64,000 nt of DNA. Source: Billgrantia endophytica (GTDB lineage Bacteria; Pseudomonadota; Gammaproteobacteria; Pseudomonadales; Halomonadaceae). Position numbers and translations under genes: made by a program. The notes beneath the pieces are model-generated. The model saw only the letters and a list, made by a program, of their open reading frames with translations, did not search any database and had not been told where the DNA came from. Location of the stretch: positions 62,001-126,000 of the forward strand of contig NZ_PNRF01000012.1 in NCBI RefSeq assembly GCF_002879615.1. Direction: 5' to 3'. The stretch's first letter is position 1. Each line of letters opens with the position of its first letter. Positions 9,421 through 31,238 of this stretch are shown here, in pieces.

Positions 9421-9451
9421 TGGCGAATCCTCCTTGGTTGGGTCCAGTGGC

Positions 9452-14806: not shown

Positions 14807-14937
14807 CGGCTCGCTCCCTGTTGGCCGGCTCTCAGCCAAGCGTACTCCATTTTGCCGTTGGGTAAACGACGCTTTGCGAAACGCCCAGCGAGCAGGGTTC
14901 GACCAGGCGCCCAGGAAATTGCGCAATCAGGAACGGC

Positions 14938-15234: not shown

Positions 15235-16739
15235 CCGTTTGTCTTGCGGCTTCGCAGGGCGACCAGCTGTCTGCCCATGAGCAGCAGGGTCAACGCCAGC
15301 GCAATCGCAAGCACGGTGGCACTGATGGGGCGTTCGATGAAGCGGCCGAGATCACCCCCGGAGAGCAGCATGGCGCGCCGTAACTGCTCCTCCATCATGG
15401 GGCCGAGAATGAAACCCACCAGGAGTGGCGCCGGCTGGAACCCGGCGAGCTTGAAGGCGTAGCCGACGATGCCGAAGGCAAGCACGAACAGGATGTCCAG
15501 CGGCGAATGGTTCACGGTGTAGACGCCAACGCAGATGAAGCAGACGATCGCGACGTGCAGGATCTCGCGCCTGATGCCCAGCATGGCGACCCAGATCCTG
15601 ATCAGCGGGACGTTGAGTACCAGCAACAACACGTTGCCCACCCAGAAACTCATGATCAGCCCCCAGAAGAGTTCCGAATTCTCGTTCATCAGGGCGGAGC
15701 CGGGGGAAATCCCGTGGATCATCAGCGCCCCCAGTATCAAGGCCATGGTCGCGCTGCCGGGGATGCCCAATACCAGGGTCGGAATGAAAGCCGTCTGGGC
15801 GGCGGCATTGTTGGCCGACTCGGGTGCCATGATGCCTTCGATGGCACCGCTGCCGAATTTTTCCGGTCGCCGGGAGACGAGTTTTTCCAGCGCGTAGCTG
15901 AGGTAGGCGGCGACGGTCTGGCCGGTACCGGGAAGCGCGCCGACCAGGCTGCCCAGAATCGATCCGCGCAGCACCGGCGCCGGCGATCGCCGCATCTCGC
16001 TCCTGTGGGGCAGCATCTCCCGGAGGCTTACCCTGGCAACGCCCGCCTTGGGATCGGCAGGATGCCTCAGGACGAAAAAAACCTCGGCGATGCCGAACAA
16101 CCCCATGGCCAGCACGATCAGGTCGATGCCATCGAACAGCTCGTACATGCCGAAGGTGTAGCGCAGCGTGCCCGAATTCACGTCGGTACCCACCGTTCCC
16201 AGCAACAGCCCGAGCGCCACCATCATGAGGCCCTTGATGGCGGAGCCGCTGGCAATGACGGCCGCGCAGATCAGCCCCAGCAGCATGACCGAGAAATACT
16301 CCCAGGGGCCGAAGTCGAGCGCGAACCTGGCCAGCAGGGGAGAGAAGAGGATCATCGCCAGTATGCCGACGGTGGAGCCGAGGAACGAGGCCATGGCCGT
16401 CATGAACAGCGCCATGCTGGCCCGCCCCTGCTGGCTCAGGGGATAGCCGTCCAGGCAGGTCACGGCCGAGGATGTGGTACCGGGAAGATTGAGCAGGATG
16501 GAGGTGATGGAGCCGCCGTACTCCGCGCCGTAATAGACGCCCGCCAGCATGATGATGGCCGCGGCGGGTTCGAGATAGAAGGTGATCGGCAGCAGCATGG
16601 AGATGGCGGCGAGAGGTCCGATGCCGGGCAGGACGCCGATGAAGGTGCCTGCCATGACGCCCAGGAAGCAATAGAGCACATTGCTCAAGGCAAGGGCGGT
16701 GCCGGCGCCCAGCGCGAGGCTGGCCAACAGGTTATCCAT
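15231..16739 (-). CDS. tctA: Tripartite tricarboxylate transporter large permease TctA (system 1)
   Basis: The 502-residue inner-membrane protein is the large permease of a TTT solute uptake system. It has the usual N-terminal hairpin GVMAGTFIGVLPGIGPLAAISMLLP, the GVYYGAEYGGSITSILLNLPGT signature and the repeated LPGTGQTVAAYLSYALEK in the second half. About twelve membrane segments are predicted. The ATG at 16739 lies inside the end of tctB, an 8-base overlap; the longer ORF upstream is antisense-like sequence. The permease couples ion flow to import of a carboxylate delivered by the Bug-type binding protein encoded two genes upstream. Confidence 0.95.
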   Translation of the reverse strand: MDNLLASLALGAGTALALSNVLYCFLGVMAGTFIGVLPGIGPLAAISMLLPITFYLEPAAAIIMLAGVYYGAEYGGSITSILLNLPGTTSSAVTCLDGYPLSQQGRASMALFMTAMASFLGSTVGILAMILFSPLLARFALDFGPWEYFSVMLLGLICAAVIASGSAIKGLMMVALGLLLGTVGTDVNSGTLRYTFGMYELFDGIDLIVLAMGLFGIAEVFFVLRHPADPKAGVARVSLREMLPHRSEMRRSPAPVLRGSILGSLVGALPGTGQTVAAYLSYALEKLVSRRPEKFGSGAIEGIMAPESANNAAAQTAFIPTLVLGIPGSATMALILGALMIHGISPGSALMNENSELFWGLIMSFWVGNVLLLVLNVPLIRIWVAMLGIRREILHVAIVCFICVGVYTVNHSPLDILFVLAFGIVGYAFKLAGFQPAPLLVGFILGPMMEEQLRRAMLLSGGDLGRFIERPISATVLAIALALTLLLMGRQLVALRSRKTNG

Positions 16740-17190
16740 AGGTGCCTCTGAAGATGGGGAGCGGCAAACGCAGGAGGATGACGAAAAGCAGGTACATGAG
16801 CAGGCACAGCGACGCGGCCAGGGCGAGAATGTGCCGGACCTTGAGCTTTCCCGTGCCAATGCCGGAGAGCGAGGCAAGGAGGAAAGTGGCGGGCAGCAAC
16901 CCCCAGGAGCCGATAATGGCCGCAAAGCCCGCCATGCCGGCGGCGATGGCCCCCATGCCTCGCCATACAGACCCGGTGCCTGCCTCCCTGCCCTTGGCGG
17001 CGGAGCAAAGGCATACGACCGACAGCACGATCAATGCCAGCCCGCAAACGAAGGGGAAGGCGCCCGCGCCCCAGTGCCGCATGGAGCCAAGTCCGTATCG
17101 ATAACCGCCAAAGGAGAAGATCGTCCCCGCAAGCAGCAGCAGCGCGGCGACGGCCTTCTCCGCGTGGTAGCGACGTGTCGGGCGGCTCAT
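16732..17190 (-). CDS. tctB: Tripartite tricarboxylate transporter small permease TctB (system 1)
   Basis: The 152-residue product has four hydrophobic segments (AVAALLLLAGTIFSFGGY, FPFVCGLALIVLSVVCL, GFAAIIGSWGLLPATFLLAS and LCLLMYLLFVILLRL), the layout of TctB. It includes the usual GAGAFPF after the first loop. The ATG at 17190 overlaps the tctC stop (ATGA), and its own 3' end overlaps tctA. The compact C-B-A order indicates a coupled operon. Confidence 0.9.
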   Translation of the reverse strand: MSRPTRRYHAEKAVAALLLLAGTIFSFGGYRYGLGSMRHWGAGAFPFVCGLALIVLSVVCLCSAAKGREAGTGSVWRGMGAIAAGMAGFAAIIGSWGLLPATFLLASLSGIGTGKLKVRHILALAASLCLLMYLLFVILLRLPLPIFRGTYG

Positions 17191-18161
17191 TGTACCGATA
17201 TGCCGGCGGCGCCGATGATCTCCGACCATTTTTCGACCTGCTCGGCAATCTGCTCGGCGAACTCCCGGGGCGTGCTGACCACGGGCACGAAGCCGAGACC
17301 GGCGATGCGGGAAGACGTTTCCGCCGAATTCATGAATTCGACGAGTGCATCGTGAATGATGCCGACGATCTCCTCGGGCGTGTCCGAGGGAGCCAGTAGC
17401 CCCTGGAGATGATCGACTTCATAGCCTTCCAGGCCGATCTCGTCGAATGTGGGCACCTCGGGCAACTGTTCCGAGCGCTGCAGCGTGGTGATGGCGAGAG
17501 GCGTCAAGAGGCCGTCGTCGATCTGGCTCTGCACGCCGGGCAGGGAGGAGAAGCCGCTTGGCACGTCGCCTGCCACCATGCCGGCAACGGCGGGCCCGGC
17601 GCCATTGTAGGGCACGTGCTCGAGGGAAATGTCCGCGTAATGCGCGAGCAGTTCTCCCGCCAGATGCTGGGCCGTGCCGATGCCGGGCGAGCCGTAGTAC
17701 GGCATCTCGCCGGACGCCATCCGCTCGAGCATCTCCTGCGCCGACTCGACCCCTATCCCGGCGTTGGCGACCCAGATGCTGGGCGCGCTGGCCACGTAGG
17801 AAATGGGCGCGAAGCTCTCGACGGGATCGTACGAGACGGACCCGTAAAGACTCGGATTGATGACCAGGCTGCTGCTGACGAGCACCAGCGTATAGCCGTC
17901 GGGGCGCGCATTGGCCACGGCCGTCATGCCGATGTTGCCGCCCGCTCCCGGGCGGTTCGCGACGACGACGCGCTGACCGAGCTCGTTGCTCAGGCCCTCG
18001 GCGACGATGCGCGCCAGCGCATCGGTGGAGCCGCCCGGCGCGAAGGGCACGACGATGGTGACGGGCCGCTGCGGATAATGCTGTGCGTGCGCGGCGGAAG
18101 CCGTCAGACCACCGACGACCAATGACATGGTCGATGCTACTATCCAGTGCTTGAACTTCAT
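17187..18161 (-). CDS. tctC: TTT-family (Bug) periplasmic binding protein TctC (system 1)
   Basis: The 324-residue exported protein has a signal peptide ending ASAAHA-Q, then YPQRPVTIVVPFAPGGSTDALARI, the hallmark of Bug receptors. It continues with VVVANRPGAGGNIGMTAVANA and a C-terminal TPREFAEQIAEQVEKWSEII. It captures a small carboxylate in the periplasm for TctAB. The GAAAT-GGGG region upstream gives a fair ribosome site. The gene lies only 66 bases after the tctA of system 2 on the same strand, so both systems may be on one transcript. Ligand is unknown; Bug proteins bind diverse carboxylates. Confidence 0.94.
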   Translation of the reverse strand: MKFKHWIVASTMSLVVGGLTASAAHAQHYPQRPVTIVVPFAPGGSTDALARIVAEGLSNELGQRVVVANRPGAGGNIGMTAVANARPDGYTLVLVSSSLVINPSLYGSVSYDPVESFAPISYVASAPSIWVANAGIGVESAQEMLERMASGEMPYYGSPGIGTAQHLAGELLAHYADISLEHVPYNGAGPAVAGMVAGDVPSGFSSLPGVQSQIDDGLLTPLAITTLQRSEQLPEVPTFDEIGLEGYEVDHLQGLLAPSDTPEEIVGIIHDALVEFMNSAETSSRIAGLGFVPVVSTPREFAEQIAEQVEKWSEIIGAAGISVQ

Positions 18162-18227
18162 CGATTTCCCCTTATTGTTTTTGCCGGGTTGGGTCGTGAT
18201 GGCGAGGGCGATGCCCGCCTCGGTGGA

Positions 18228-19736
18228 CTACGAAGCCTCTTCGACGACTCGCGGTCGACGCCTGGCCTTCAGCAGTCCGTGTAAAAAGCAGCCCAGCATG
18301 CCGAGAATGATCAGCAGCGATACCGGACGGGTGAAGAAGGCGGTGTACCAGCCGTTGCCGAAGATCTGCATGGTGCGGATGAGCTCCGAGTCGGCCACCG
18401 GGGCCAGGATCACCCCCATGACCACCGCCGCGGTGGAGTAGCCATGGCGTTTCATGAAGAAGCCCAGCACGCCGAAGGCCAGCATGGTCCACACATCGAA
18501 CATCGCATTGCGCAACGCATAGGTGCCGAAGATCGAGAGCATCAGCAGCACCGGGATCAGCATCCGGGTCGGAATGGCCAGGGCGCTGGTCATGGCGCGC
18601 CCGGTGATCACCGCGAAGATGACCATCAGCGCCTGCGACAGGATCGCCGCGCAGATCAGGCCGTAGACCAGCACCGGCTGCTGGCTGACGATCTGCGGGC
18701 CGGGCTGCAGGCCCTGCATGGTCAGGGCGCCAAGGATCACCGCCGTGGCCACACTGCCGGGCACGCCCAGCACCAGGGAGACGGTCAAGGCGCCGCCGGA
18801 ACAGGCGTTGTTGGCGGTTTCCGAGGCCACGATGCCTTCCAGCGATCCCTTCCCATACGCTTCCGGCTGCTTGGAGAGGCGGCGGGCCAGCGAATAGGAG
18901 GTGAAGGAGGCCAGGGTGCCGCCGGCAGCGGGAATCAGACCGACGAGAATGCCAAGCCCGGTGGAGCGCAGGATATTGAAGGGCCGCCTCGGGGCCTCGC
19001 CGAACCCCCTGACGATGGCCCGCACGTCGCCAGGCACGTGCTTGCGCATCTCGACGACCCGGTCGCGGCTCGCCAGCTCGATCAGCTCCGAGACGACGAA
19101 CATGCCGATCAGCACCGGCACCACCTGGACGCCCTCCACCAGGTACATGGTGCCGAAGGTGGCCCGCCACTCGCCGGTGGGCACCATGCCGACGGTGCCG
19201 ACCAGCAGCCCGAACATGCCGGAAGCCAGCACCTTGATCAGCGAGCCTCCACCCAGCGCGCCCAGGATCATCACCCCGCACAGCGCCACCAGGAAGATCT
19301 CCGTCGGGCCGAAGCCAAGCGCCACGGAGGCGATCGCGCCGATGCCCAGCAGCATCATGAAGTAGGAGAGCGTGCCGCCGATGGCCGATGCGGCGATGGC
19401 CGCCCCCAGGGCCTGGGAGGAGCGTCCCTGCCGGGTGAGGGCGTAACCGTCCCTGGCGGTGGCGGCGTTTTCCGGCGCGCCGGGGGTATTGAGCATGATG
19501 GCGGTGATGGCGCCCCCGTAGGTCACCGCGACGTAGACCGAGGTCAGGAACACCAGGCCCGAGAGCGGGCTCATGGTGAAGGTCAGCGGCAACAGCACCG
19601 CGACCGCCATCCCCGAGGAGAGCCCCGGTGTGGCGCCGACCAGGATGCCCAGCGCACTGCCGAGTACGGCGAACAGGATCGTGTCGCCACCCAGGGCGGC
19701 CTCGAGTCCGCTCATCACGTGATTGAGCAACTCCAT
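18228..19736 (-). CDS. tctA: Tripartite tricarboxylate transporter large permease TctA (system 2)
   Basis: The 502-residue large permease shares length and layout with the system 1 TctA but is clearly diverged in sequence. It carries LGSALGILVGATPGLSSGMAVAVLLP at the first repeat, SVYVAVTYGGAITAIMLNTPG and LIPAAGGTLASFTSYSLARR at the second. It ends with a charged tail RRRPRVVEEAS. It is separated from tctB by nine bases. With its TctB and TctC it forms a complete second uptake system directly upstream of system 1. Confidence 0.94.
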   Translation of the reverse strand: MELLNHVMSGLEAALGGDTILFAVLGSALGILVGATPGLSSGMAVAVLLPLTFTMSPLSGLVFLTSVYVAVTYGGAITAIMLNTPGAPENAATARDGYALTRQGRSSQALGAAIAASAIGGTLSYFMMLLGIGAIASVALGFGPTEIFLVALCGVMILGALGGGSLIKVLASGMFGLLVGTVGMVPTGEWRATFGTMYLVEGVQVVPVLIGMFVVSELIELASRDRVVEMRKHVPGDVRAIVRGFGEAPRRPFNILRSTGLGILVGLIPAAGGTLASFTSYSLARRLSKQPEAYGKGSLEGIVASETANNACSGGALTVSLVLGVPGSVATAVILGALTMQGLQPGPQIVSQQPVLVYGLICAAILSQALMVIFAVITGRAMTSALAIPTRMLIPVLLMLSIFGTYALRNAMFDVWTMLAFGVLGFFMKRHGYSTAAVVMGVILAPVADSELIRTMQIFGNGWYTAFFTRPVSLLIILGMLGCFLHGLLKARRRPRVVEEAS

Positions 19737-19745
19737 ACGCTTCCC

Positions 19746-20201
19746 TCAGTTGACCAGAACGCCCAACAGGCCCATGGGAACGCGGGCATGCAGCAGCGTC
19801 GAAAACAGCAAGTAGAGTGCAACGGCGCTACCCAACGGCAACGCCGCCAGGGAGATCGGCCGCCGCTCGCCAAGCGCCCATTGCAGCGCCAGCACCGCCA
19901 GCCATACGAAGACGAAGCCTCCCAGTTGGCTCCACGCCAGCAACAGCAGCACGGGCAGTGCGACGACCAGCGCGCGACGCCGGGCGATGTGGCGCGACGT
20001 CTTCTCGGGCTGCTGTCGTGAGTCCCGATGACGCAGGAATTGCACCAGGTTCCCCGCCATGAGCGTGAGCAGCGCCAGACTCAGGGCCAGGGGAAACAGG
20101 CGCGCCTCGAACGACAACCCGTAGGCTTGCCACCAGTACGCCAGCGTGAACGACAGCATCGTCACGGGCACGACCAACCCACCGACGGATAAGTTCTTCA
20201 C
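19746..20201 (-). CDS. tctB: Tripartite tricarboxylate transporter small permease TctB (system 2)
   Basis: The ~151-residue product has four hydrophobic stretches (VVPVTMLSFTLAYWW, LFPLALSLALLTLMAG, ALVVALPVLLLLAWSQLGGF and AVALYLLFSTLLHA) in TctB order. No ATG is well placed before the first segment. I propose the GTG at 20201 (VKNLSVGG), with GGGTGG six bases upstream; GTG at 20207 is also possible. The longer ORF to 20477 overlaps the end of tctC and reads as shadow sequence. Confidence 0.8.
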   Translation of the reverse strand: MKNLSVGGLVVPVTMLSFTLAYWWQAYGLSFEARLFPLALSLALLTLMAGNLVQFLRHRDSRQQPEKTSRHIARRRALVVALPVLLLLAWSQLGGFVFVWLAVLALQWALGERRPISLAALPLGSAVALYLLFSTLLHARVPMGLLGVLVN

Positions 20202-20259
20202 GTAAGCCACCCAGGGAAATTCATCGACACCGCGCCGGCCAAATGTCCAGCGCCTCGCA

Positions 20260-21249
20260 TCATTCGCCGGTCGCCTCGAGCAGGGCCGCTTCGGTCGCCC
20301 GGAAGGATTCGGCATACTCCTCGCCCGGCGCGCGCAGCGAGAGATCGTCCAGGCCGGAGGCTTCGACGGACTGCAGGTAGGCATCCGATTCCATCGCCGC
20401 CAGTATCGCCTGCTGCAGGCGTTCATAGCGCTCGGGATACTCCTGTTGGAATGCGCTCTGCACGGCATAGACGCCATAGCGGGCCAGGAAATCCGGGGCG
20501 GGCACCTCGACGTCGTAGGGCGCCAAGGCCTCGACCAGGGTCTCGGCCTCGGGCCAGCGCGGGCTCTCCTGCGGTGCCGCCACCATCAGCGCGCGCGACT
20601 CCCCACGAATGTTCAGGCGCGAGAAGTCGTCACCCAACGTCGCGCTCACGTGGCCGCCCAGCATGGCGTTGGCCGCCTCGCTGCCGCCGCTGTAGCCCAC
20701 GATGCGCACGTCGATGTCCAGCGCCTTGGCCATCCACTTGGCGAACAGCTCCTGAGCGTTGCCCTGAGCGGTGGCAATGGTCAGCTCGCCGGGATTCTCC
20801 CGAGCCGTGTCGACGAACTCGGCGAAGCTCTGAAAGGGACTGTCGTTGGCGACCATCAGAATGCGCGGGTCCACCACGTCGACGGCGATCACCTCGAAGT
20901 CGGAGCGGCTGAAGGGGGCGTTGCCGATCACGTCGGCCATGGTCAGGTCGGGTTCATTGATCGCCAGCATCACCGGCGCGTCCGTGGGCTCGCGCAGCAT
21001 GACCGTGGCGGCGACCTGGCCGCCCCCGCCGGGCAGGTTCTGCACCGTGACCGGCACGCCGAGTTGCTCCTCGAGCGGCCCGGCAAGAACGCGGGCCTGA
21101 CGGTCGGAGCCGCCGCCGGCGGCAAATGCCACGATGATGTTGAGCGGGCCGTCCGGCCAGTTCTCCTGCGCCCCGGCCGACAGGGGCAGGGCCGCCAGCA
21201 GTACCGCCGATACGCCAAATAGCTTCGCAACAGAGATCTTGTTCTTCAT
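20260..21249 (-). CDS. tctC: TTT-family (Bug) periplasmic binding protein TctC (system 2)
   Basis: The 329-residue exported receptor has a signal peptide ending LSAGAQ-E, followed by NWPDGPLNIIVAFAAGGGSDRQAR, the Bug ligand loop in a variant form with GGGSDRQ in place of GGSTD. It then has NLPGGGGQVAATVM and GYSGGSEAANAMLGG. It heads the six-gene minus-strand transporter array. The ATG at 21249 follows GGCGGAA; the upstream extension to 21321 is not supported. An operator repeat 94 bases upstream, shared with the adjacent gntR gene, indicates control by that regulator. Confidence 0.92.
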   Translation of the reverse strand: MKNKISVAKLFGVSAVLLAALPLSAGAQENWPDGPLNIIVAFAAGGGSDRQARVLAGPLEEQLGVPVTVQNLPGGGGQVAATVMLREPTDAPVMLAINEPDLTMADVIGNAPFSRSDFEVIAVDVVDPRILMVANDSPFQSFAEFVDTARENPGELTIATAQGNAQELFAKWMAKALDIDVRIVGYSGGSEAANAMLGGHVSATLGDDFSRLNIRGESRALMVAAPQESPRWPEAETLVEALAPYDVEVPAPDFLARYGVYAVQSAFQQEYPERYERLQQAILAAMESDAYLQSVEASGLDDLSLRAPGEEYAESFRATEAALLEATGE

Positions 21250-21342
21250 CGGTTTCCGCCTCGAGTTGTGATTATTATGCTTCGACGATGGGCCGCTCAG
21301 CCTCCGATATCGTCGATTCACTCATTCAGAATGCAATTAGCA

Positions 21343-21358
21343 TAGTCAACTAGTCAAC
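21343..21358. promoter_or_regulatory. Putative GntR operator before the transporter operon
   Basis: Contains TAGTCAACTAGTCAA followed by C, a double GTCAAC direct repeat with 8-base period. The same 15-mer recurs exactly at 22137-22151 upstream of gntR, and a related palindrome is at 22217-22230. It lies between the gntR stop and tctC. Confidence 0.75.
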
Positions 21359-21366
21359 ATGTTTTT

Positions 21367-22101
21367 CTATTTCCCTTCCACCTGATGCACCTGGTAGGGG
21401 ATGCGGAACTGCTCCTTGTAGACCGATTCGCCATAGATCAGCGGGCGACTGGCGGCGTTACTCAGCACGTAATCGCGGATCAGCAGGGGCGAGCCCCGGG
21501 TGATCTCCAGCAGTTCGGCGATCTCGGGCGTGGCGGAGCCGACGCGAATGTTGCCATGGATGTGCACCACCGGATCCTGCAGCACTTCAGCAAGGATGCG
21601 GTGGATCGACATGGTATTGAGCTCGCGCACGCTCAAGCGGTCGCCGATGGTCTTGGACATGTAGCGTCGCTCGAGACTGAGCGGCGCATCGTTGACCAGC
21701 CTCAGTCGCTCGAGCAGGTAGGTGTCCTCGGCCGCCAGGCCCAACGCCTCACATGCGCTCCGGCACGACTCGGCGCGAAAGCCGATGAGCCGATAGGAGA
21801 CCCGCTCCCCGCTGCTGGCCATCTGTTCGTCGAAGGAGCGGATGCGCGTGGTTTCCAGCGGAATGTTGAGATCGGCCTGCCTGACGAAGCTGCCGCTGCC
21901 GGGGCGCCGTTGGACCAGCCCCTCGTAGACCAGCTTCTGCAGCGCCCGTGCCACGGTGGCCCGCGTGGTACCGAACTGCTCGGTCAACTCCTTCTCCGAG
22001 GGCAGCCGGTCCCCCGGCGCGTACTGTCCGGATTCGATGCTCTGCCGGACGAAGTCTCCAATCTGTGCGTAAATCGGCGTGAAATCTGCTTTTTTTGGCA
22101 T
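21367..22101 (-). CDS. GntR-family regulator with UTRA effector domain (HutC subfamily)
   Basis: The ~244-residue regulator has an N-terminal winged helix (PIYAQIGDFVRQSIESGQY, then GDRLPSEKELTEQFGTTRAT and VYEGLVQRRPGSGSFV). The UTRA ligand domain follows (residues ~90-235, with ERRYMSK in the core and the usual PLLIRDYV and YGESVYKEQFRIPY at the end). It lies between the transporter array and the catabolic operon. Operator repeats flank it, so autoregulation plus control of both operons is likely; the inducer is presumably the transported compound or an intermediate. The ATG at 22101 is preferred; an in-frame TTG at 22143 would lie inside an operator. Confidence 0.92.
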   Translation of the reverse strand: MPKKADFTPIYAQIGDFVRQSIESGQYAPGDRLPSEKELTEQFGTTRATVARALQKLVYEGLVQRRPGSGSFVRQADLNIPLETTRIRSFDEQMASSGERVSYRLIGFRAESCRSACEALGLAAEDTYLLERLRLVNDAPLSLERRYMSKTIGDRLSVRELNTMSIHRILAEVLQDPVVHIHGNIRVGSATPEIAELLEITRGSPLLIRDYVLSNAASRPLIYGESVYKEQFRIPYQVHQVEGK

Positions 22102-22136
22102 TGGTATCGATATTTCCAAAGGTAGCTTGAAATGAA

Positions 22137-22151
22137 TAGTCAACTAGTCAA
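22137..22151. promoter_or_regulatory. Putative GntR operator before gntR
   Basis: TAGTCAACTAGTCAA, identical to the copy at 21343-21357. It lies 36 bases before the proposed gntR start, suited to autorepression. Confidence 0.75.
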
Positions 22152-22216
22152 GAATGCTTCTGGCGTATGAGATATTTGCCGACAGGCCACGCTGCCTGTC
22201 AAGTCAGGTGAAATAA

Positions 22217-22230
22217 GTTGACTCATCAAC
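22217..22230. promoter_or_regulatory. Putative GntR operator before the catabolic operon
   Basis: GTTGACTCATCAAC, a palindrome with GTTGA/TCAAC arms, 39 bases before the MmgE/PrpD start. It uses the same GTCAAC/GTTGA half-site as the two repeats upstream of tctC and gntR. Confidence 0.6.
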
Positions 22231-22268
22231 CTGTGAAATGACAGCTCCAATAACGAGATGGCAAACAG

Positions 22269-23672
22269 ATGACCGATACCAATACCGACGCGGTCGAGGC
22301 TCCCGGGCGCTTTATCGCCGAACGCTTCGCTCGCCTGCAGTGGGAAGATTTGCCCGACACCGTACGCCGCACCACCCGCTTGTTCCTGCTCGACACCCTG
22401 GGCGTGATAGCGGGGGCGGCCAGGGCACCCGGCATGCATGAACTACTCGCCACGCTGGAAGACTTCGAGCCTCCAGGGCAAGCCACCGTGCTGCTCAGCG
22501 ACACGCCACGCAGCCCGACCGTGGCCGCCCTGGCCAACGGCGCCGCGGCCCATGCGCTGGATTTCGACGATCAGCACGATCCGGCCCGGGTGCACGCCTT
22601 CTGCGTGGTGCTGCCGGCGGCATTGGCCGCGGCGGACGCCCGCGGGGAGCTGGACGGCAAGCGCTTTGTCACCGCCCTGGCCTGTGGCGTCGAGCTGTTC
22701 TGCCGCCTGGGTCTGACCTGCCACAACAGCCTGGGCAAGGGCTGGCACCCCACCACCGCGCTGGGCTCGCTGGCCGCCGCCCTGACCGCCGGCATGATCT
22801 TCGATCTCGATGGCGAGCGCATGACCCACGCACTCGGCCTGGCCTACACCCAGATGAGCGGCACCACCCAGTTCATCGCCGATGGCGCCCTGGCCAAGCG
22901 CATGGGGCCGGGCTTCGCCGCGCGCAATGGCGTGCTGGCGGCGCAACTGGCCCGCGCCGGCATCACCGGTCCGCATCGTTACCTGGAGGGCAAGGCCGGG
23001 CTGTTCAATCTCCACGAGCGCGGCGAGGTGACGCCGGAGATTCTCACCGAGGGGATCGGTAGCCACTGGCACATTCTCGACCTGTCGATGAAGCCCTATC
23101 CCTGCTGCCGCTGCGTGCACTCCACCATTCAACTGGGACTGGCGCTGCACCGGGAGGGGCTGCGCCCGGAGCAGGTCGCCGGCGCACGCATTCTGCTCGG
23201 CGAGGTCAACGCCGGCATCGTCGGCGCCGATTTCGACATCGGCCACGCCAACCCGGTGGTGCACGCCCAGTTCAACGCCGCCTACGGCCTGGCCACGGCG
23301 CTCGCCGACGGCCGCGTCGACATCGCCTCCTACACCCCGTCACGCATCCGCGACGAACGCAGCCGGCTGGCCGGGCGCTTCCATACCGAAATCTCCGCGG
23401 AGATTCCGGCCACGGCCATCGCTCCCGCCCGCATCGAGCTCGATCTCGCCGACGGTACCAGCCTGGTGCGCGAGACGCTGACCATGAAGGGCGCTCCGGA
23501 CGATCCGATGTCCGAAGAGGAGGTACTGGACAAGTTCTTCGCTTGCATGAAGTGGGGCTTCGACACACCGCGCGAGGTGGCTCAGCCGCTGGCCGAGCGC
23601 CTGCTCGGTATCGAGGCGCTGCCCGACATTCGCCCCTTGATCGCGGAATTCTCCCGCATGGGACGCGCTTGA
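22269..23672 (+). CDS. MmgE/PrpD family protein (2-methylcitrate dehydratase-like)
   Basis: The 467-residue cytosolic protein has the MmgE/PrpD fold. Visible family pieces are FLLDTLGVIAGAARAPG, the conserved ANGAAAHALDFDD near residue 95 with its Asp-Asp pair, GWHPTTALGSLAAALTAG, QFIADGALAKRMGPGFAARNG and KPYPCCRCVHSTIQLGLAL. Known members dehydrate or isomerise hydroxy-carboxylates, but the family is functionally diverse. It is the first gene of a four-gene operon behind a GntR operator, 11 bases from the HyuA-like gene. A role in converting a small carboxylate from the transporter system is inference. Confidence 0.93.
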   Translation: MTDTNTDAVEAPGRFIAERFARLQWEDLPDTVRRTTRLFLLDTLGVIAGAARAPGMHELLATLEDFEPPGQATVLLSDTPRSPTVAALANGAAAHALDFDDQHDPARVHAFCVVLPAALAAADARGELDGKRFVTALACGVELFCRLGLTCHNSLGKGWHPTTALGSLAAALTAGMIFDLDGERMTHALGLAYTQMSGTTQFIADGALAKRMGPGFAARNGVLAAQLARAGITGPHRYLEGKAGLFNLHERGEVTPEILTEGIGSHWHILDLSMKPYPCCRCVHSTIQLGLALHREGLRPEQVAGARILLGEVNAGIVGADFDIGHANPVVHAQFNAAYGLATALADGRVDIASYTPSRIRDERSRLAGRFHTEISAEIPATAIAPARIELDLADGTSLVRETLTMKGAPDDPMSEEEVLDKFFACMKWGFDTPREVAQPLAERLLGIEALPDIRPLIAEFSRMGRA

Positions 23673-23683
23673 CTGGAAACGGG

Positions 23684-25795
23684 ATGAACACCATGACACA
23701 ACCAACCTACCGCCTCGGCGTCGATATCGGCGGCACCTTCACCGATATCGTGATGATCGGCGAAACGGGAGAAGTCTTCTCCAAGAAGCTGCTCTCGACC
23801 CCCAGGGACTACTCCGAGGCGATCGAGAACGGCTGCCGCGAGCTGATGGCCGAGATCGGCGTGAGTGCCGCGCAGATCCGCGAGTTCGTGCATGCCACCA
23901 CGGTGGCGACCAACACCATCATCGAGCGCAAGGGCGCCCGGGTGGCGCTGGTGACCACCGAGGGCTTCCGCGACGTGCTGGAGATCGCCCGCTTCCGCAC
24001 GCCCAAGCTCTACGACATCGACTACCGCAAGCCCGACCCGCTGGTGCCCCGCGACCGGCGCTTCGAAGTCGGCGAGCGCATCGGCGCCGACGGTGCGGTG
24101 GTGACGCCGCTGGACGAGGGCGGGTTCGAAGCCCTGGCTCAAGCCATCGAGGCCTCCCAGGCCGAATCGGTGGCGATCACCTTGATCAACGCCCACGTCA
24201 ACGCCGAACACGAGCAGCGCATCGCCCGCTTCCTGCGCCAGCGCCTGCCCGAACTCGTGGTCACCGCCTCGTCGGACCTGGTGCCGCAGATCGGCGAATA
24301 CGAGCGCACCTCGACCACGGTGGTCAACGCCTATCTGCGCCCCATCGTCACCCGCTACGTGGAGTCGCTGCAGCGCCGCCTGGAGGCCATCGGCATTGGC
24401 GCGCCGCTGATGATCATGCAATCCTCCGGCGGTATCGCGCCGGGCCACCTGGTCAAGGATCAGCCGATCACCATCATCGAGAGCGGTCCCGCCGCCGGCG
24501 TGCTGGGCGGCGCCCGCCTGGCCAGCCATCTCGGCCTGGGCGACCTGCTGGTGTTCGACATGGGCGGCACCACCGCCAAGGCGACGCTGGCCGACAACGG
24601 CACCTACAGCGTCTCGCCGGAGACCGAAGTGGGCGGCGAGCCGGTGCTGGGCACGCGCATGATTCGCGGTGCCGGCTATCCGGTGCAGGTACCCACCATC
24701 GACATCGCCGAGGTCGGCGCCGGCGGCGGCAGCCTGGCCTCCGTCGACAGCGCCGGCGGCATTCGCGTCGGACCGCGCAGCGCCGGTTCCGAGCCGGGTC
24801 CGGTGGCCTATGGCCGCGGCGGTACCCAGCCCACCGTCACCGACGCCAACCTGATGCTCGGCTATCTCAATCCCCAGGCGCTGGTGGGCGGCGACCTGGA
24901 ACTGGACCACGAGGGCACCCGGCGCGCCTTCGAGCGGCTGGCCAGCGAACTTTCGGTGGCGGAGACCGAGGCCGCCTACGGCGTGCACCTGATCGCCAAC
25001 GCCACCATGCTGCGCGCCCTGCGCGGGGTGAGCTCGGAGAAGGGCCGCGATCCCTCGCAGTTCACGCTGATGGCGATCGGCGGCAATGGCCCGGTGCACG
25101 CCTGCTCACTGGCCGAGAGCGCCGCGGTGGAGCGTATCGTGATCCCGCCGGTGGCCGGTCTCTACTCGGCGCTGGGCATGCTGTTCGCCGATGTCGAGCA
25201 CCAATTGTTGCACGCCTTCTACCGTCGCCGCGACGAGACCGGCGCCGCTGAGCTGCAAGCCGCCATCGACGAACTGCTGTCGCGGGGCGCGGCCCTGCTC
25301 TCCCGTCAGGGCTTCGCCGCCGACAAGCAGGAACTCAGGATCGAGATCGACATCAAGTACGCCGGCCAGACCTCGCCGCTCACCGTGCCGCTGGCCAGCG
25401 CGTGCATCGACGCGGCCGCCCTGGCCAAGCTGGACGACGACTTCCACGCCCTGCACGCCGAGACCTTCGGCTACGCATCGCCGAACGAGCCGCTGCAATT
25501 CGTCGCCGTCAAGGCGGTATGTCATGGGATTCCCGAGCATCCGCGCATGCCGGAGCGCTGCCGGCGCGGCAACGAGCGCAGCCTGGGGGCGAGCGTGCGC
25601 CGCGCCTACTTCGGCGACGCCGGCTGGCACGACACCCCGGTGATCACCCGCACCGAGCTGGCCGAAGGCCCGCGCCAGGGGCCGCTGATCGTCGAGGAGT
25701 ACGACACCACCTGCGTTATCCGGCCCGGCTGGGTGGCCTCGCTGGATAGCTGGAACTGCTTGCATGCGACCCGTCGCCAGGAGGCCGCGCAATGA
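23684..25795 (+). CDS. Hydantoinase/oxoprolinase subunit A (HyuA-like)
   Basis: The 703-residue protein is the ATP-dependent A subunit of the hydantoinase B/oxoprolinase group. The N-terminus LGVDIGGTFTDIVMI and the later LLVFDMGGTTAKATLA are the two phosphate loops of its ASKHA fold. In between are ATTVATNTIIERKGARVALV and the IMQSSGGI stretch typical of HyuA. Enzymes of this group open five-membered lactam or hydantoin rings, or carboxylate ketones, with ATP. The ATG at 23684 comes first after the PrpD gene; ATG 23693 is an alternative. The 3' end overlaps hyuB by four bases (ATGA). Confidence 0.94.
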   Translation: MNTMTQPTYRLGVDIGGTFTDIVMIGETGEVFSKKLLSTPRDYSEAIENGCRELMAEIGVSAAQIREFVHATTVATNTIIERKGARVALVTTEGFRDVLEIARFRTPKLYDIDYRKPDPLVPRDRRFEVGERIGADGAVVTPLDEGGFEALAQAIEASQAESVAITLINAHVNAEHEQRIARFLRQRLPELVVTASSDLVPQIGEYERTSTTVVNAYLRPIVTRYVESLQRRLEAIGIGAPLMIMQSSGGIAPGHLVKDQPITIIESGPAAGVLGGARLASHLGLGDLLVFDMGGTTAKATLADNGTYSVSPETEVGGEPVLGTRMIRGAGYPVQVPTIDIAEVGAGGGSLASVDSAGGIRVGPRSAGSEPGPVAYGRGGTQPTVTDANLMLGYLNPQALVGGDLELDHEGTRRAFERLASELSVAETEAAYGVHLIANATMLRALRGVSSEKGRDPSQFTLMAIGGNGPVHACSLAESAAVERIVIPPVAGLYSALGMLFADVEHQLLHAFYRRRDETGAAELQAAIDELLSRGAALLSRQGFAADKQELRIEIDIKYAGQTSPLTVPLASACIDAAALAKLDDDFHALHAETFGYASPNEPLQFVAVKAVCHGIPEHPRMPERCRRGNERSLGASVRRAYFGDAGWHDTPVITRTELAEGPRQGPLIVEEYDTTCVIRPGWVASLDSWNCLHATRRQEAAQ

Positions 25796-27462
25796 GCCCG
25801 ATCAATCCGATTCGCCGCGAACTGCTCAAGAACGCCCTGATCACCATCGCCGACAACGCCCTGGTGATGGTCACGCGCACCGCGCGCACCGCCAACGTCA
25901 AGAACTCCATGGACTTCTCCGCGGCGATCTGCGACGGCGAGGGCAACCTGGCCGCCCAGGGGCTGGCGGTACCCGTTCACCTCGGTGTGGTGATGCCCGC
26001 CTTGCAAGGCTGTCTCGACCACTTCGGCGACGACATCCAGGAGGGCGACGTGCTCGCCTCCAACGACCCCTACTCCGGCTGCTCGCACCTCAACGACATC
26101 TTCACCTTCAAGCCGGTCTACGTGGATGGCGTGCGGGTGGCTTTCGTCTCCCTGGTGCTGCACCACACCGACCTGGGCGGCCGGGTGCCGGGGGGCAATG
26201 CCGCCGACAGCCAGGAGATCTTCGAGGAGGGGCTGCGCATCCCGCCGGTGAAGATGCGCGAGGCGGGCCGCGACAGCCAGGCGGTGCTGCGCATGATCGA
26301 GTTCAACTCGCGGGTGCCCGACCGCGTGCTGGGCGACCTGCGCGCCCAGCTCGCCGCCCTCGACGAGGCGGCGCGGGAAGTGGAGCGCATCGCCCGTGAG
26401 TTCGCCCCGACCGCCTTCGACGCCTATCTCAAGGACCTGGTCGACTATGCCGAGCAGTTGACCCGCGACTCCATCGCCGAGCTGCCCGACGGCGAGGTGG
26501 AGTTCGACGAGTACAACGACGACGACGGCGTCGGCAACGGCCCCATTCACCTGCATCTCAAGCTGATCAAGCGCGGCGACGAGATCGTCGCCGACTACAC
26601 CGGCACCCAGCAGGACACCGGCGGCGCGGTGCACTGCAACTGGGAGTTCACCGTCTCCTGCACCTACGCCGCGCTGCGTACCGTGCTTGCCGCCGAGATC
26701 CCCAACAACGCCGGGCTCTACCGGCCGATCAAGGTGATCGGCCCCAAGGGCACCTTCGTCAGCGTGCAGTACCCCGCCGCCGTCGGCTCGCGGGGGCAGA
26801 TCGGCTTCCGCCTGCGCTCCATCGTGCTCGGCGCCCTGGCCAAGCTGGTGCCGAATCGCATGCCGGCCTGCGCCGGGGGCTCTGAGTTCGCCATCGTCGC
26901 CTCCGGCAAGCACGACGGCGGGCGCCCCTTCCTGCACCTGGAGTTCCACAACAACACCGGCCTCGGTGGCGGCCCGGACCGCGACGGCCAGGACGCCGGC
27001 CCCTACTGCATCGGCAACCTCGCCAACGTGCCGGTGGAACTGATCGAGGGCGAGAACCCGATTCGCGTCGAGCGCTACGAGTTCCTGCCCGACACCGGCG
27101 GCGCGGGACGGTACCGGGGAGCGCTGGGCCTGGTGCGCGAGTACCGTTTTCTCACCGACGACGTGCGGGTGCAGGTGCGTTCCGACCGCTACACCTCCAA
27201 GCCCTGGGGGCTGTTCGGCGGCGGCCCCGGCGCCGGCGGCCGGTTGACCGCCAACCCTGGCACCGAGCGGGAGGAGGCGTTACCCTCCAAGTTCATCCGC
27301 CACTTCCAGCGCGGAGACGTGCTGCGCGCCGAGATGGCGGCGGCGGGGGGCTACGGCGCGCCGGCCGAGCGCGACCGGGCCGCCATCGCCCGCGATCTTG
27401 CCGAGGGCAAGCTGACCCTGGCCCACGCCCGCGAGGTCTACGGATATGAGTCAAGCGAATAG
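25792..27462 (+). CDS. Hydantoinase/oxoprolinase subunit B (HyuB-like)
   Basis: The 556-residue B subunit pairs with the HyuA-like protein. Family hallmarks are MVTRTARTANVKNSMDFSAA near residue 27, the metal-site-like HLGVVMPA and DVLASNDPYSGCSHLNDIF at ~85-105, LHHTDLGGRVPGG, and the C-terminal GGPGAGG. It overlaps HyuA at the start and the next gene by 17 bases, so the set is tightly coupled. With HyuA it should form an ATP-dependent ring-opening or carboxylating enzyme; which substrate is not visible from sequence. Confidence 0.94.
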   Translation: MSPINPIRRELLKNALITIADNALVMVTRTARTANVKNSMDFSAAICDGEGNLAAQGLAVPVHLGVVMPALQGCLDHFGDDIQEGDVLASNDPYSGCSHLNDIFTFKPVYVDGVRVAFVSLVLHHTDLGGRVPGGNAADSQEIFEEGLRIPPVKMREAGRDSQAVLRMIEFNSRVPDRVLGDLRAQLAALDEAAREVERIAREFAPTAFDAYLKDLVDYAEQLTRDSIAELPDGEVEFDEYNDDDGVGNGPIHLHLKLIKRGDEIVADYTGTQQDTGGAVHCNWEFTVSCTYAALRTVLAAEIPNNAGLYRPIKVIGPKGTFVSVQYPAAVGSRGQIGFRLRSIVLGALAKLVPNRMPACAGGSEFAIVASGKHDGGRPFLHLEFHNNTGLGGGPDRDGQDAGPYCIGNLANVPVELIEGENPIRVERYEFLPDTGGAGRYRGALGLVREYRFLTDDVRVQVRSDRYTSKPWGLFGGGPGAGGRLTANPGTEREEALPSKFIRHFQRGDVLRAEMAAAGGYGAPAERDRAAIARDLAEGKLTLAHAREVYGYESSE

Positions 27463-28615
27463 GGCGGCGAGCCCCGATGCCGCGCCAATGCTAGGACCCA
27501 ACGCCAGCTTGATCGGTGAGCGCGATGCTCGCTCGCGTCTGGCGACCCCGGCGCTGCTGATCGACATCGAGACGCTGGACGCCAACCTGGCCAAGATGCA
27601 GGCGCTCTGCGACCGGGCCGGCGTGGCGCTGCGCCCGCATGCCAAGGCGCACAAGTGCCCGGAGATCGCCCGGCGGCAGCTCGCCGCCGGCGCGACGGGC
27701 ATCTGCGTGGCCACCCCCGGCGAGGCGGAGTGCTTCGCCGAGGCGGGCATCGACGACATCCTGCTCACCTCCACCTTCGCCACCGACAGCGCCTGCCGGC
27801 GGGTGGTGGCGGTGATGGCCCAAACGCGGCTGGTCTGCGTGGTCGACCACCCCTCCATCGTCGCCACGCTGGGCGCTCTGGCGACTCGGGCCGGCATCGA
27901 GGCCGAAGTGCTGATCGACGTGGACCTCTTCCGCCACCGCGCCGGCGTCGCCTCGCCCCGGGACGCCGCCGAGCTGGCACGGGTCATCGAGGCCACCGAG
28001 GGAGTGCGCCTGGCGGGCATTCAGGGCTACGCCGGGCATCTCTCCCACTGCCGCGAGGTGGGCGAACGGCGACGCGGCGCCGAGCAGGCCCGGGCGATGT
28101 TGAGCGGGATGCGCGACGCCATCGAGGATGCCAGCGGACGCAAGGCGGACTGGATCACCGGCGGCAGCACCGGTGCGCTGCTGCAGGAGATGGAAGGCGT
28201 CTACACGGAATTCCAGTGCGGCAGCTACGCGCTGATGGACACCGAGTACGCTGCTGTCGACCCCGACGGCAGCGGCCAGCCGCTGTTTCCGCCCAGCCTG
28301 TTCCTCGCCGCCGCCGTGACCAGCGCCAACCACCCCGGGCTCGCCACCACCGACGGCGGCGAGAAGCGCCTGGCCAGCAAGTACGGCGTACCGCCCAGGG
28401 TCATGCGTGGCGCGCCGCCAGGCACGGAGTACCGCGCCACCAGCGACGAGCACGGCCAGTTGCTGCTGCCGGAAGGAGAGTGGGTGGAACTGGGCGCCTT
28501 GGTCGAGGTGGAAGTGCCGCACTGTGACCCGACGGTCAATCTTTTCGACCACATCCATGTGGTGCGCGGCGAAACGCTGGAGGCGATCTGGCCCATTGAG
28601 GCGAGGGGGTGTTGA
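27446..28615 (+). CDS. D-threonine aldolase / D-serine dehydratase-like PLP enzyme (DSD1 family)
   Basis: The 389-residue protein has the fold-type III PLP barrel of alanine racemase followed by a C-terminal metal-binding domain. Lys67 in ALRPHAKAHKCPEIA is the expected Schiff-base lysine. ITGGSTGALLQEM holds the phosphate loop, and the C-terminal VPHCDPTVNLFDHIHVV supplies the His/Cys metal ligands. Relatives cleave D-3-hydroxy amino acids or dehydrate D-serine-like substrates. As the last gene of the PrpD-HyuA-HyuB operon it suggests a hydroxy-amino-acid step. It overlaps hyuB by 17 bases. Confidence 0.92.
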   Translation: MSQANRAASPDAAPMLGPNASLIGERDARSRLATPALLIDIETLDANLAKMQALCDRAGVALRPHAKAHKCPEIARRQLAAGATGICVATPGEAECFAEAGIDDILLTSTFATDSACRRVVAVMAQTRLVCVVDHPSIVATLGALATRAGIEAEVLIDVDLFRHRAGVASPRDAAELARVIEATEGVRLAGIQGYAGHLSHCREVGERRRGAEQARAMLSGMRDAIEDASGRKADWITGGSTGALLQEMEGVYTEFQCGSYALMDTEYAAVDPDGSGQPLFPPSLFLAAAVTSANHPGLATTDGGEKRLASKYGVPPRVMRGAPPGTEYRATSDEHGQLLLPEGEWVELGALVEVEVPHCDPTVNLFDHIHVVRGETLEAIWPIEARGC

Positions 28616-28621
28616 TCGTGA

Positions 28622-28756
28622 GCGTACTTCACCCTCGATCTGGACGATGTCCGTAGCTATGCCGTTCCGGTTGCAACCCGATTGGCTGGAAGGGTTGCCC
28701 ATGATTCCGACACAGGAGTCGCGGCCGCCATGGTTCTCTCTATCCCACCGTAACCG
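28622..28756 (+). other. Intergenic stretch with an unrecognised short open frame
   Basis: After the DSD1 gene, one frame reads YFTLDLDDVRSYAVPVATR, then HDSDTGVAAAMVLSIPP before a stop. It follows an in-frame TGA and has no start or ribosome site, so if it is coding it is only the tail of something lost. I see no promoter, repeat or RNA signature here. Confidence 0.2.
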
Positions 28757-29048
28757 ATAGCGCGGCGACCCAGCCGCCGTAGCGGAAACCACCGGTCGGG
28801 TCTTCCTGCGGCCCGCCGGAACCGCCGTCGCAAGGCCCCACGCAGTTGGGCGCAGCCGCTGCTTGGCATAGGTCTGGCGCCCCGAATGGGGCTGAAACAC
28901 CACCATGCCGATCTGCGGTTTCGTCGAAGTGACCAGAGGCAGCCCCACGCCGATCGTGATCCCATGGGTGTCGCTCATCGGCGCGGCGTGCCACGTTCCC
29001 TTCGATATCACCCGTTGTCGAGGCGTACTGCACGGCACACAGCTTCAT
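28757..29048 (-). pseudogene. Mosaic remnant: nitrilase pieces joined to a DHFR-like piece
   Basis: From an ATG at 29048 with GGGAG upstream, the frame reads the first 21 residues of the nitrilase at 14063 (MKLCAVQYASTTGDIEGNVA...). A second frame then carries residues ~71-111 of that protein (THGITIGVGLPLV... to YAKQRL). Next comes residue stretch ~193-204 (NCVGPCDGGSGG). It is fused in frame to residues ~20-37 of the DHFR-family protein encoded at 30570 (GGPQEDPTGGFRYGGWVA). Three junctions are therefore present, each within a few bases of short shared sequence. The piece near 28760-28815 matches the DHFR-like gene almost base for base. Confidence 0.85.
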
Positions 29049-29082
29049 CGGCCCGCTCCCTATCGCCTGGCTTTCCGGTAAG

Positions 29083-30003
29083 CTAAGCCATTTTTCGAAA
29101 CCACCACAATGGCCTGCCGTCGATGGCCGCAAGCCCGAGGCCGATCAGCCCCATGCCGGCCAGGTGGCGCCACTCCAGCCGCTCACCCAGCACGAAGATA
29201 CCCAGCAAGATGGCGCTGGCCGGGATCAGGAACGTGACCAGCAACAGGTTGGTCGCCCCAGCGCTTGCCAGCAGGCGGAAATAGATCAGGTAGGCCAGCG
29301 TGGTGGAGAACAGCGCCAGACCGAACACTGCCGTCCAGGTGTCCAGCCCCGGCCAGGGCTGCTGCCAGAAGCGCTCCACCAACAGCGCCAGGGGCAGGAG
29401 CACTAGCGCCGATGCCGTGACCTGCCCGCAGGCCGCAACCAGAGGCGAGCAACCCAGGGCACCAAAGCGCCGCCCGAACACTCCGGCAAAGGCATAGGAG
29501 AGCGCGCCGGCCAGCACCGCAAGCTGCGCCCATGAATGGCTGGTGGCACCTTCGTGAACCTCGGCGCCCAGCATGTACACCACGCCGGCAAAACCGATTG
29601 CTACGCCCGCAAGGCGTGCCGGGGTGAGAGATTCGTCGCGTGTCAGGAAATGCGCCACGACGATGGTGAAGAAGGGCGTGGTGGCGTTGAGAATCGACGC
29701 CAGGCCGCTGGCGATATGCCCCTGACCCCAGGCGATCAGGCTGAAAGGAATCATGTTGTTGAGCAGGCCCATGCCGAAGAAGGCCATCCACAGCCGCGGG
29801 TCGCGCGGCATGCGCTGGCCCAGTAGCAGAATCAGCGCATGCAGCGCCAGCGCCGCCAGCCCCACGCGCAGGGCCACGATGGTGAGCGGCCCCAGCTCCG
29901 CGACCGCCACCCCGACGAAAAAGAAGGAGCCGCCCCACAGCACCGACAAGGCCAGCAACAACACCCACTCCGTGAGCCCCATGGTTCGATCGATCGTCTT
30001 CAT
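29083..30003 (-). CDS. EamA/DMT-family transporter
   Basis: The 306-residue inner-membrane protein has ten predicted segments in two EamA repeats. The first begins VLLLALSVLWGGSFFFVGVAV and the second LAVLAGALSYAFAGVFGRRF. Ends of both repeats show the typical GVAIGFAGVVYMLGAE and MGLIGLGLAAIDGR. Such proteins export metabolites or amino acids; the substrate is unknown. GGAG lies eight bases before the ATG. The gene stands alone between the mosaic remnant and the gamma-glutamylcyclotransferase-like gene. Confidence 0.92.
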   Translation of the reverse strand: MKTIDRTMGLTEWVLLLALSVLWGGSFFFVGVAVAELGPLTIVALRVGLAALALHALILLLGQRMPRDPRLWMAFFGMGLLNNMIPFSLIAWGQGHIASGLASILNATTPFFTIVVAHFLTRDESLTPARLAGVAIGFAGVVYMLGAEVHEGATSHSWAQLAVLAGALSYAFAGVFGRRFGALGCSPLVAACGQVTASALVLLPLALLVERFWQQPWPGLDTWTAVFGLALFSTTLAYLIYFRLLASAGATNLLLVTFLIPASAILLGIFVLGERLEWRHLAGMGLIGLGLAAIDGRPLWWFRKMA

Positions 30004-30186: not shown

Positions 30187-30573
30187 ATGTTCACACCTGC
30201 GGATTCCATCTCTCGCACGCCGCTGGTGGCCGTCTATGGCACGCTGAAGCGTGGGCAGCGCAACCACTACTGGTTGAAGAGTGCCGATTTCCTTGGCAGC
30301 GACCGGCTGACCAGCGCGACCCTCTACGATCTTGGTCCCTTTCCCGGTGCCAAGCCCGAGCCATCGCGCGGTGTCGAAGTGGAGGTGTTTCGCGTCGATG
30401 CCAACCTGCTTACCGAACTGGACAGGCTCGAGGACTTCCGCCCGCGCCAACCCCATGCCGGGCTCTACCATCGGGCCATTCACGCCACCAGCTTCGGTCC
30501 GGCCTGGCTCTATCTCTACAATCCCGAAGTGGCCGGCTGCGTGTCAATTCGGCAGGGTGGATGGCGACATTAA
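30187..30573 (+). CDS. Gamma-glutamylcyclotransferase-like (GGCT/AIG2) protein
   Basis: The 128-residue cytosolic protein has the GGCT fold signature VAVYGTLKRGQRNHYWL at its first strand and helix, and the catalytic-type Glu in LDRLEDF at the expected distance. Members act on gamma-glutamyl amines or peptides; the small AIG2-like branch is not well characterised. An AGGGGGG site precedes the ATG at 30187. The longer ORF upstream runs antisense to the EamA gene. It is convergent with the DHFR-family gene, with a 4-base overlap. Confidence 0.85.
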   Translation: MFTPADSISRTPLVAVYGTLKRGQRNHYWLKSADFLGSDRLTSATLYDLGPFPGAKPEPSRGVEVEVFRVDANLLTELDRLEDFRPRQPHAGLYHRAIHATSFGPAWLYLYNPEVAGCVSIRQGGWRH

Positions 30574-31238
30574 CCTTCTCGCTGCATCTTCTCGCGCCTT
30601 GCCACTTCCGCCTCAGTGGGCGGGTCCATGGCGAAGTCGCCGGTTTTCACCTCGCCGTCGCACTCATACTTGGCGATCACGATACCGTTGGGTGATACCC
30701 GATTGGCGACGAGCTTGAAAGCAGACGCCCTCGCGCTGTCGTCGAACAGCCTCTTGCCGTTTCCCAGTACCACGGGGAAGGTAAACGTATGAATTTCATC
30801 GACGAGGCCGCTGGCAAGCAGCGTGTGGACCAGCTCGGTGCTGCCTTGAGTGATTAACGCCGGCCCATCTTCCTGCTTCAGCCTGGCAACATCGGCCGCG
30901 GCGTCGTTGAGGGCCACCGAGTCCTTCCAGGTCAGCTCCAGGCCTTTTTGGGTCGCCACGTACTTGGTAATCGAGTTGAAGGTTCTGGCGATGGCGTCAT
31001 CCGGGCCATCCTCGGCATAGGGCCAGTGGGCGGCGAAGATCTCGTACGTCCTGCGCCCGAGCAGTAGATCGAAGGGCCGCTCGAACAGCTTGTCGATCGC
31101 TTCCCCGAACACCTCGTCCACCAACGGTGCGACCCAGCCGCCGTAGCGGAAACCATCGGTCGGGTCTTCCTGCGGCCCGCCGGGCGCCTGCATGACACCG
31201 TCGAGTGACACCATGGCGGCAACGATCACTTTCCGCAT
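30570..31238 (-). CDS. Dihydrofolate reductase family protein (RibD C-terminal domain type)
   Basis: The 222-residue protein has the RibD-C/YyaP-like dihydrofolate-reductase fold: VIVAAMVSLDGVMQAPGG at the N-terminus, DLLLGRRTYEIFAAHWPY in the cofactor region, ITQGSTELVHTLLASGLVDE and FPVVLGNGKRLF near the end. It probably reduces a pterin-, flavin- or lactone-type substrate with NAD(P)H. GGAGGA precedes the ATG. A ~54-base stretch around 31130-31185 is nearly identical to the end of the mosaic remnant at 28757, so a second copy existed. Confidence 0.9.
   Translation of the reverse strand: MRKVIVAAMVSLDGVMQAPGGPQEDPTDGFRYGGWVAPLVDEVFGEAIDKLFERPFDLLLGRRTYEIFAAHWPYAEDGPDDAIARTFNSITKYVATQKGLELTWKDSVALNDAAADVARLKQEDGPALITQGSTELVHTLLASGLVDEIHTFTFPVVLGNGKRLFDDSARASAFKLVANRVSPNGIVIAKYECDGEVKTGDFAMDPPTEAEVARREKMQREG

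Follow-up and report, generated by a model that had tools for sequence, protein, structure and literature searches.

A chimeric nitrilase-DHFR remnant in Billgrantia endophytica as a probable relic of a head-to-tail joint between two arrangements of one locus

Introduction

Homology-facilitated illegitimate recombination (HFIR) integrates foreign DNA by a homologous crossover at one end and an illegitimate join at short microhomology at the other, and such joins often use a few shared bases. In short-patch double illegitimate recombination, reportedly treated by Harms and colleagues in 2016, the patch is said to be flanked on both sides by continuing recipient sequence. Merodiploids of Streptococcus pneumoniae that arise by transformation carry duplications of about 100-900 kb and use repeats (PMC3784515), while for the orphan genes of the type VI secretion system (T6SS) of Vibrio cholerae successive insertions have been described and HFIR has been proposed as the mechanism (PMC5361080), and a bacterial tandem duplication with 9-bp microhomology borders is also on record (PMC11111574; see also PMC3240628 and PMC8116780). 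Here we describe a chimeric remnant of about 340 bases, composed of pieces of a nitrilase-family gene and of a DHFR/RibD_C-like gene, in a stretch of 64,000 nucleotides from the draft genome of the salt-loving bacterium Billgrantia endophytica (assembly GCF_002879615.1, contig NZ_PNRF01000012.1, positions 62,001 to 126,000; the whole stretch is called the window below). The remnant is probably what decay has left of a head-to-tail (merodiploid) joint that linked two haplotypes of a single chromosomal locus.

Results and Discussion

Composition of the chimeric remnant

The remnant occupies 28759-29100 and consists of four scraps, all in one orientation, which read 5' to 3' along the minus strand as the 3' end of an EamA gene followed by the 5' flank and first 24 codons of a nitrilase (scrap A, with the native ATG at 29049-29047), the middle of the nitrilase (scrap B), a late part of it (scrap C) and a DHFR/RibD_C-like piece (Table 1). 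Compared within the window, 28979-29094 matches 14737-14853 (88%, E 5e-37), 28852-28984 matches 14473-14603 (88%, E 5e-43), 28812-28848 matches 14195-14231 (35/37, E 6e-11) and 28765-28819 matches 31129-31183 (54/55, E 8e-22), with no nitrilase match left of 28812. When the remnant was searched at E 0.001 against the whole draft genome (4.98 Mb, 50 contigs), the sole matches were the same four (nitrilase 5' end with its flank 6e-35, nitrilase middle 3e-41, late nitrilase 4e-9, DHFR piece 3e-20) and the query itself. All four scraps are non-random, their matches lying far above chance, and an earlier sequence-only reading of this DNA was right in seeing three nitrilase segments and one DHFR-family segment within less than 300 bases, and in taking them for a chimeric product of two further copies, one of the nitrilase and one of the DHFR-like gene, joined at short homology and reduced by internal deletions. 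The remnant reaches somewhat further right than the interval given there (28757-29048): it runs on beyond 29048, through the nitrilase 5' flank, into the EamA gene. At the other end, DHFR similarity extends to 28759 against several relatives and to 28746 against B. kenyensis. An origin of the chimera in the assembly, to which a draft in 50 contigs might be prone, is very improbable: the pieces are only 88-98% identical to their sole genome matches, differences that would not result from wrongly joined reads, and the passage from scrap A into EamA is the one found in four other species.

Table 1. Positions of the features discussed, in order along the window
Feature	Position	Strand	Basis or remark
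Intact nitrilase-family gene, copy 1	14063..14926	-	Pfam PF00795; conserved ATG at 14806
Truncated HMG-CoA reductase, C-terminal 58 codons and stop, copy 1	14938..15114	-	tblastn E 2e-26
Left copy of imperfect 19-20 bp direct repeat, island edge	15112..15131	+	pair comparison
Catabolic island: tctA, two tctC-like, GntR, MmgE/PrpD, hyuA, hyuB, BhcC-like aldolase	15132..28735	.	13.6 kb
Right copy of imperfect direct repeat, island edge	28726..28744	+	pair comparison
DHFR/RibD_C-like scrap, about codons 19-37	28759..28819	-	near-identical core 28765-28819
CCCGCCGG (plus-strand reading), 8-bp microhomology at DHFR/nitrilase joint	28812..28819	-	in both parents
Nitrilase scrap C, late part of gene	28812..28849	-	alignment to intact nitrilase
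Nitrilase scrap B, middle of gene	28852..28977	-	alignment to intact nitrilase
Nitrilase scrap A: first 24 codons, 5' flank, EamA 3' end	28978..29100	-	contiguous with relatives
EamA-family transporter gene, copy 2	29083..30003	-	Pfam PF00892; 92.5-93.9% to four Billgrantia species
Gamma-glutamylcyclotransferase-like gene, copy 2	30187..30573	+	Pfam PF06094
Intact DHFR/RibD_C-like gene, copy 2	30570..31238	-	Pfam PF01872

The joint between the DHFR and nitrilase pieces falls at CCCGCCGG, whose 8 bases are shared by both parents as the sequence-only reading had noted; microhomology of at least 8 bp occurs at 0.02% of all possible DHFR/nitrilase join positions. For the two inner junctions the nitrilase of B. 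kenyensis was used as the parent, and the best alignment gives a 137-bp deletion between scraps B and A and a 240-bp deletion with 2 extra bases between scraps C and B, both with 0 bp of microhomology. Of the repeats of 6-9 bp predicted at the junctions generally, one is present at the DHFR/nitrilase joint and none at the inner two in that alignment. The hexamer GCAGTT, which had been proposed as the junction next to it, is found at the end of scrap C, in the C parent and, when the organism's own gene is used, in the B parent; it does not make a clean junction, because in the own B parent it stops 9 bases short of the start of the B match and because B. kenyensis carries GCAGCT in its place.

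With these two deletions, most of the domain gone and no family match, the nitrilase part has the marks of a pseudogene. Its frame stays open for 102 codons from the native ATG, and a frame of 130 amino acids across the remnant gave no Pfam match at E 0.001. A new chimeric gene was considered as well and dropped, because long frames arise readily by chance in this DNA (a different one, overlapping part of the remnant, runs open for 515 codons) and no family match was obtained.

Gene order in related genomes

The relatives compared belong to Billgrantia/Halomonas and include B. desiderata, B. kenyensis, B. aerodenitrificans and B. ethanolica (hereafter the four species). Each of these four has, immediately after EamA, an intact nitrilase 247 codons long, and 28978-29100, that is scrap A with the EamA end, is contiguous with their sequence at 95-96% identity. 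Since scrap A runs into EamA just as the intact nitrilase does in the four species, the remnant is, judging from sequence, the EamA-linked nitrilase at its usual place and not a dispersed paralogue. We therefore reject the earlier proposal of dispersed paralogues lying 15 kb apart; the spacing of 15 kb is due to a catabolic island. The wider locus is variable among relatives. It begins with the nitrilase and ends with the DHFR gene and a gene of the dienelactone hydrolase family; between them EamA may be present or missing, as may a group made up of an HMG-CoA reductase, a permease-like gene (without NCBIfam match) and a MocR-like regulator, and likewise the cyclotransferase (the names of the reductase and the MocR-like regulator were taken from the genes of genome G031).

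A survey of gene order in 90 genomes of the genus found any match at E 1e-12 in 26 of them, our organism included. Every one of the 14 other genomes that have both matches within 20 kb on one contig carries DHFR upstream of the nitrilase and on its strand (14/14), and the distance between the two in relatives is about 0.1-6.6 kb; among the remaining 11 matching genomes, four have DHFR and nitrilase on different contigs or at a distance of about 1 Mb, and seven have only one of the parts. The ancestor with an intact nitrilase followed by DHFR, to which the sequence-only reading had appealed, has no counterpart in this survey, and we prefer a tandem joint as the explanation of the gene order because the arrangement nitrilase-then-DHFR was not found among the 14 genomes with both genes within 20 kb.

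In some relatives the locus shows peculiarities of its own. The nitrilase match of G005 (L053, about 8828-9555) is split over two frames and in G036 (L045, about 9127-9760) EamA is without its middle, both loci looking damaged, and Halomonas sp. KAO (L083, 9927-10967 and 12877-13025) has a second copy of the EamA 3' end about 2 kb from the full gene.

Two arrangements of one locus in cis

The window holds a truncated HMG-CoA reductase just upstream of the intact nitrilase gene (14063). It is identical to the G031 protein in 52 of 59 positions, stop included, and its full-length relative matches TIGR00532. The interval 14781-15115 aligns unbroken with the nitrilase-reductase interval of G029 and G031, which is without EamA (7 and 2 gap bases). 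Ten further loci were compared over the same interval, six with EamA and four without both EamA and reductase: the alignment breaks at 14853 in all six EamA-bearing relatives, four of which (B. kenyensis, B. aerodenitrificans, G051 and G036) resume beyond EamA, and it stops at 14861-14870 in the loci that lack both genes (G057, G053, G041 and G043). The window carries the EamA-less arrangement on the left and the EamA-bearing one on the right, i.e., two haplotypes of one locus in cis. These copies are recognisable as nitrilase-reductase at 14.06-15.11 kb (copy 1) and nitrilase-EamA-DHFR at 28.8-31.2 kb (copy 2), and the DHFR gene of copy 1 would be represented by the piece of 55-61 bases only.

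A head-to-tail joint as the probable origin

If the two copies were once joined head to tail, copy 1 on the left would have had the order nitrilase-HMG-CoA reductase-...-DHFR and copy 2 on the right the order nitrilase-EamA-cyclotransferase-DHFR, with the N-terminal end of the copy 1 DHFR joined to the C-terminal part of the copy 2 nitrilase at CCCGCCGG. The copy 2 nitrilase would later have lost 137 bp and about 240 bp, and the interval of copy 1 from about codon 362 of the reductase to about codon 37 of the DHFR would have been replaced by the catabolic island. Such a joining would be microhomology-mediated, tandem and between divergent alleles, its partner being incoming DNA of a related strain or a sister copy. 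The sequence itself shows the pieces with their order and orientation, the two locus arrangements in cis, the 8-bp joint and the truncated reductase; we infer the tandem joining by microhomology, the sequence of events and that the DHFR scrap once belonged to copy 1. Because DHFR precedes the nitrilase in 14/14 relatives, a fusion running from nitrilase to DHFR is what a tandem joint is expected to produce, and the remnant has this geometry: the DHFR scrap lies directly left of the nitrilase scrap on the same strand, and in relatives it is the nitrilase that lies left of DHFR. With this single assumption the unusual order, the presence of two nitrilases and the choice of DHFR as the extra piece are all accounted for.

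An alternative event would be a short-patch or template-switch insertion, in which 55-61 bases of the DHFR gene 2.3 kb away were copied in at microhomology during repair of the damaged nitrilase copy and no tandem duplication of the locus took place. The shortness of the piece, its identity in 54 of 55 positions to the organism's own DHFR gene and the 8-bp microhomology on one side are all in keeping with this. We nevertheless hold such a patch to be unlikely, as the nitrilase does not resume to the left of it, where the stretch 28616-28757 and the island come next, as the second nitrilase and the truncated reductase would be left unexplained, and as it offers no reason why the source should be precisely a gene bounding the locus, in the orientation that a tandem joint requires.

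The origin of the two haplotypes was approached through identity comparisons. In favour of the proposed joint, the EamA gene of copy 2 is 92.5-93.9% identical to those of the four species, against 82.9-85.0% for the DHFR gene (all four) and 85.3-86.1% for the hydrolase gene further on (matched in three of them), the identity to relatives dropping near 30.1 kb, just past EamA. A number of observations weigh against a joint between haplotypes. The organism's intact nitrilase likewise reaches 90.2-91.0% identity to the four species, and when these are compared with one another nitrilase and EamA stand at 92.6-96.4%, also in the pairs with B. kenyensis, whose DHFR genes are at only 84.7-85.5%; the high identity of EamA may reflect conservation or a general exchange of these genes. 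Over 229 coding columns of 15 sequences (columns with a base in the relic and more than 8 filled rows), the remnant is 90.8% identical to the own intact nitrilase vs. 89.5-91.7% to the four-species group, and the best tree groups it with the own copy (support 47). At 12 columns the four species share one base and the own copy has another; the remnant carries the former at 9 of them and the latter at 3, a weak signal. The tree does not tell which of the nitrilase copies is foreign, nor transfer from self-duplication, so that an exchange between strains should not be asserted firmly. The DHFR scrap, at 54/55 to the own gene and 53/55 to several others, does not tell its source either, because it has only 55-61 bases and these lie in a highly conserved stretch. 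Furthermore, a strain with an intact joint was not found among the genomes compared, and although the left flank is colinear with relatives the crossover point there was not located.

These points leave room for an old tandem self-duplication within this lineage, followed by complementary gene loss and with no transfer between strains. It would have the same geometry as the joint proposed above, and the weak pairing of the remnant with the own nitrilase in the coding-column tree (support 47) would suit it. But it requires that copy 1, on losing EamA, became colinear with the haplotype of G029 and G031, which has no EamA, and it does not account for a copy 2 EamA at 92.5-93.9% to the four species when neighbouring genes stand at 83-86%. 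We regard it as an improbable course of events that should still be kept in mind.

The catabolic island and its edges

The island lies between the truncated reductase and the DHFR scrap, i.e., in the middle of copy 1. It includes tripartite tricarboxylate transport genes; hyuA and hyuB come nearest to caprolactamase models, at scores below the cut-offs, and the assignment of the BhcC-like aldolase is below its model cut-off too. The island looks foreign: its aldolase, the one island gene searched for in other genomes, is absent from 89 other genomes of the genus at E 1e-60 and from a sample of 273 further genomes of the class at E 1e-80. Nine island frames were scanned and no integrase or transposase was among them. 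The imperfect direct repeat at the edges has a core, CTCTCTATC (9 bases), that occurs only twice in the window, both times at an island edge; since an equally high score is reached by 143 of 19868 random pairs, the repeat is suggestive only as a boundary feature of the island, and it was spotted in hindsight. The segment of roughly 140 bases that separates the DHFR scrap from the aldolase (28616-28757) had no DNA match among those listed for 60 other genomes of the genus, 30 of which gave weak, short matches, all to other parts of the query; a plus-strand frame of 43 codons within it had no match in 89 other genomes of the genus at E 0.01 and no Pfam match at E 1.

In a further scenario a single transfer brought the island in: the nitrilase-reductase fragment-island-DHFR segment of a related strain would have entered by a homologous crossover on the left and an 8-bp join to the resident nitrilase on the right, the island arriving without a mobile element of its own. 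We consider this a tentative possibility, and the head-to-tail joint described above the probable one.

Comparison with described systems

The locus resembles HFIR in that copy 1 is colinear with the locus on the left and a short-microhomology illegitimate join, the 8 bp of CCCGCCGG, is present on the right, and differs from it in that the nitrilase copy has decayed further. As in short-patch double illegitimate recombination, a short foreign or self patch is joined illegitimately, but the host gene is not continued on the far side, with no nitrilase left of 28812. With the merodiploids of S. pneumoniae it shares two copies of a chromosomal region in direct tandem, whereas the block here comprises a few genes and the joint 8 bp only (PMC3784515). 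In the V. cholerae T6SS clusters, a new module beside an old gene likewise pushes part of the old locus downstream, but whole immunity genes are kept there, whereas a broken nitrilase is displaced here (PMC5361080).

The remnant adds one more case to a type of event already described, together with ordinary gene decay at a variable locus. It illustrates how knowledge of the gene order in relatives allows a small piece of chimeric sequence to be read as the probable joint left by an earlier tandem duplication. Two arrangements of one locus coexist in the chromosome of B. endophytica, one of them with a foreign-looking island inside, and this hints at a route by which islands might become established with no transposase or integrase involved.
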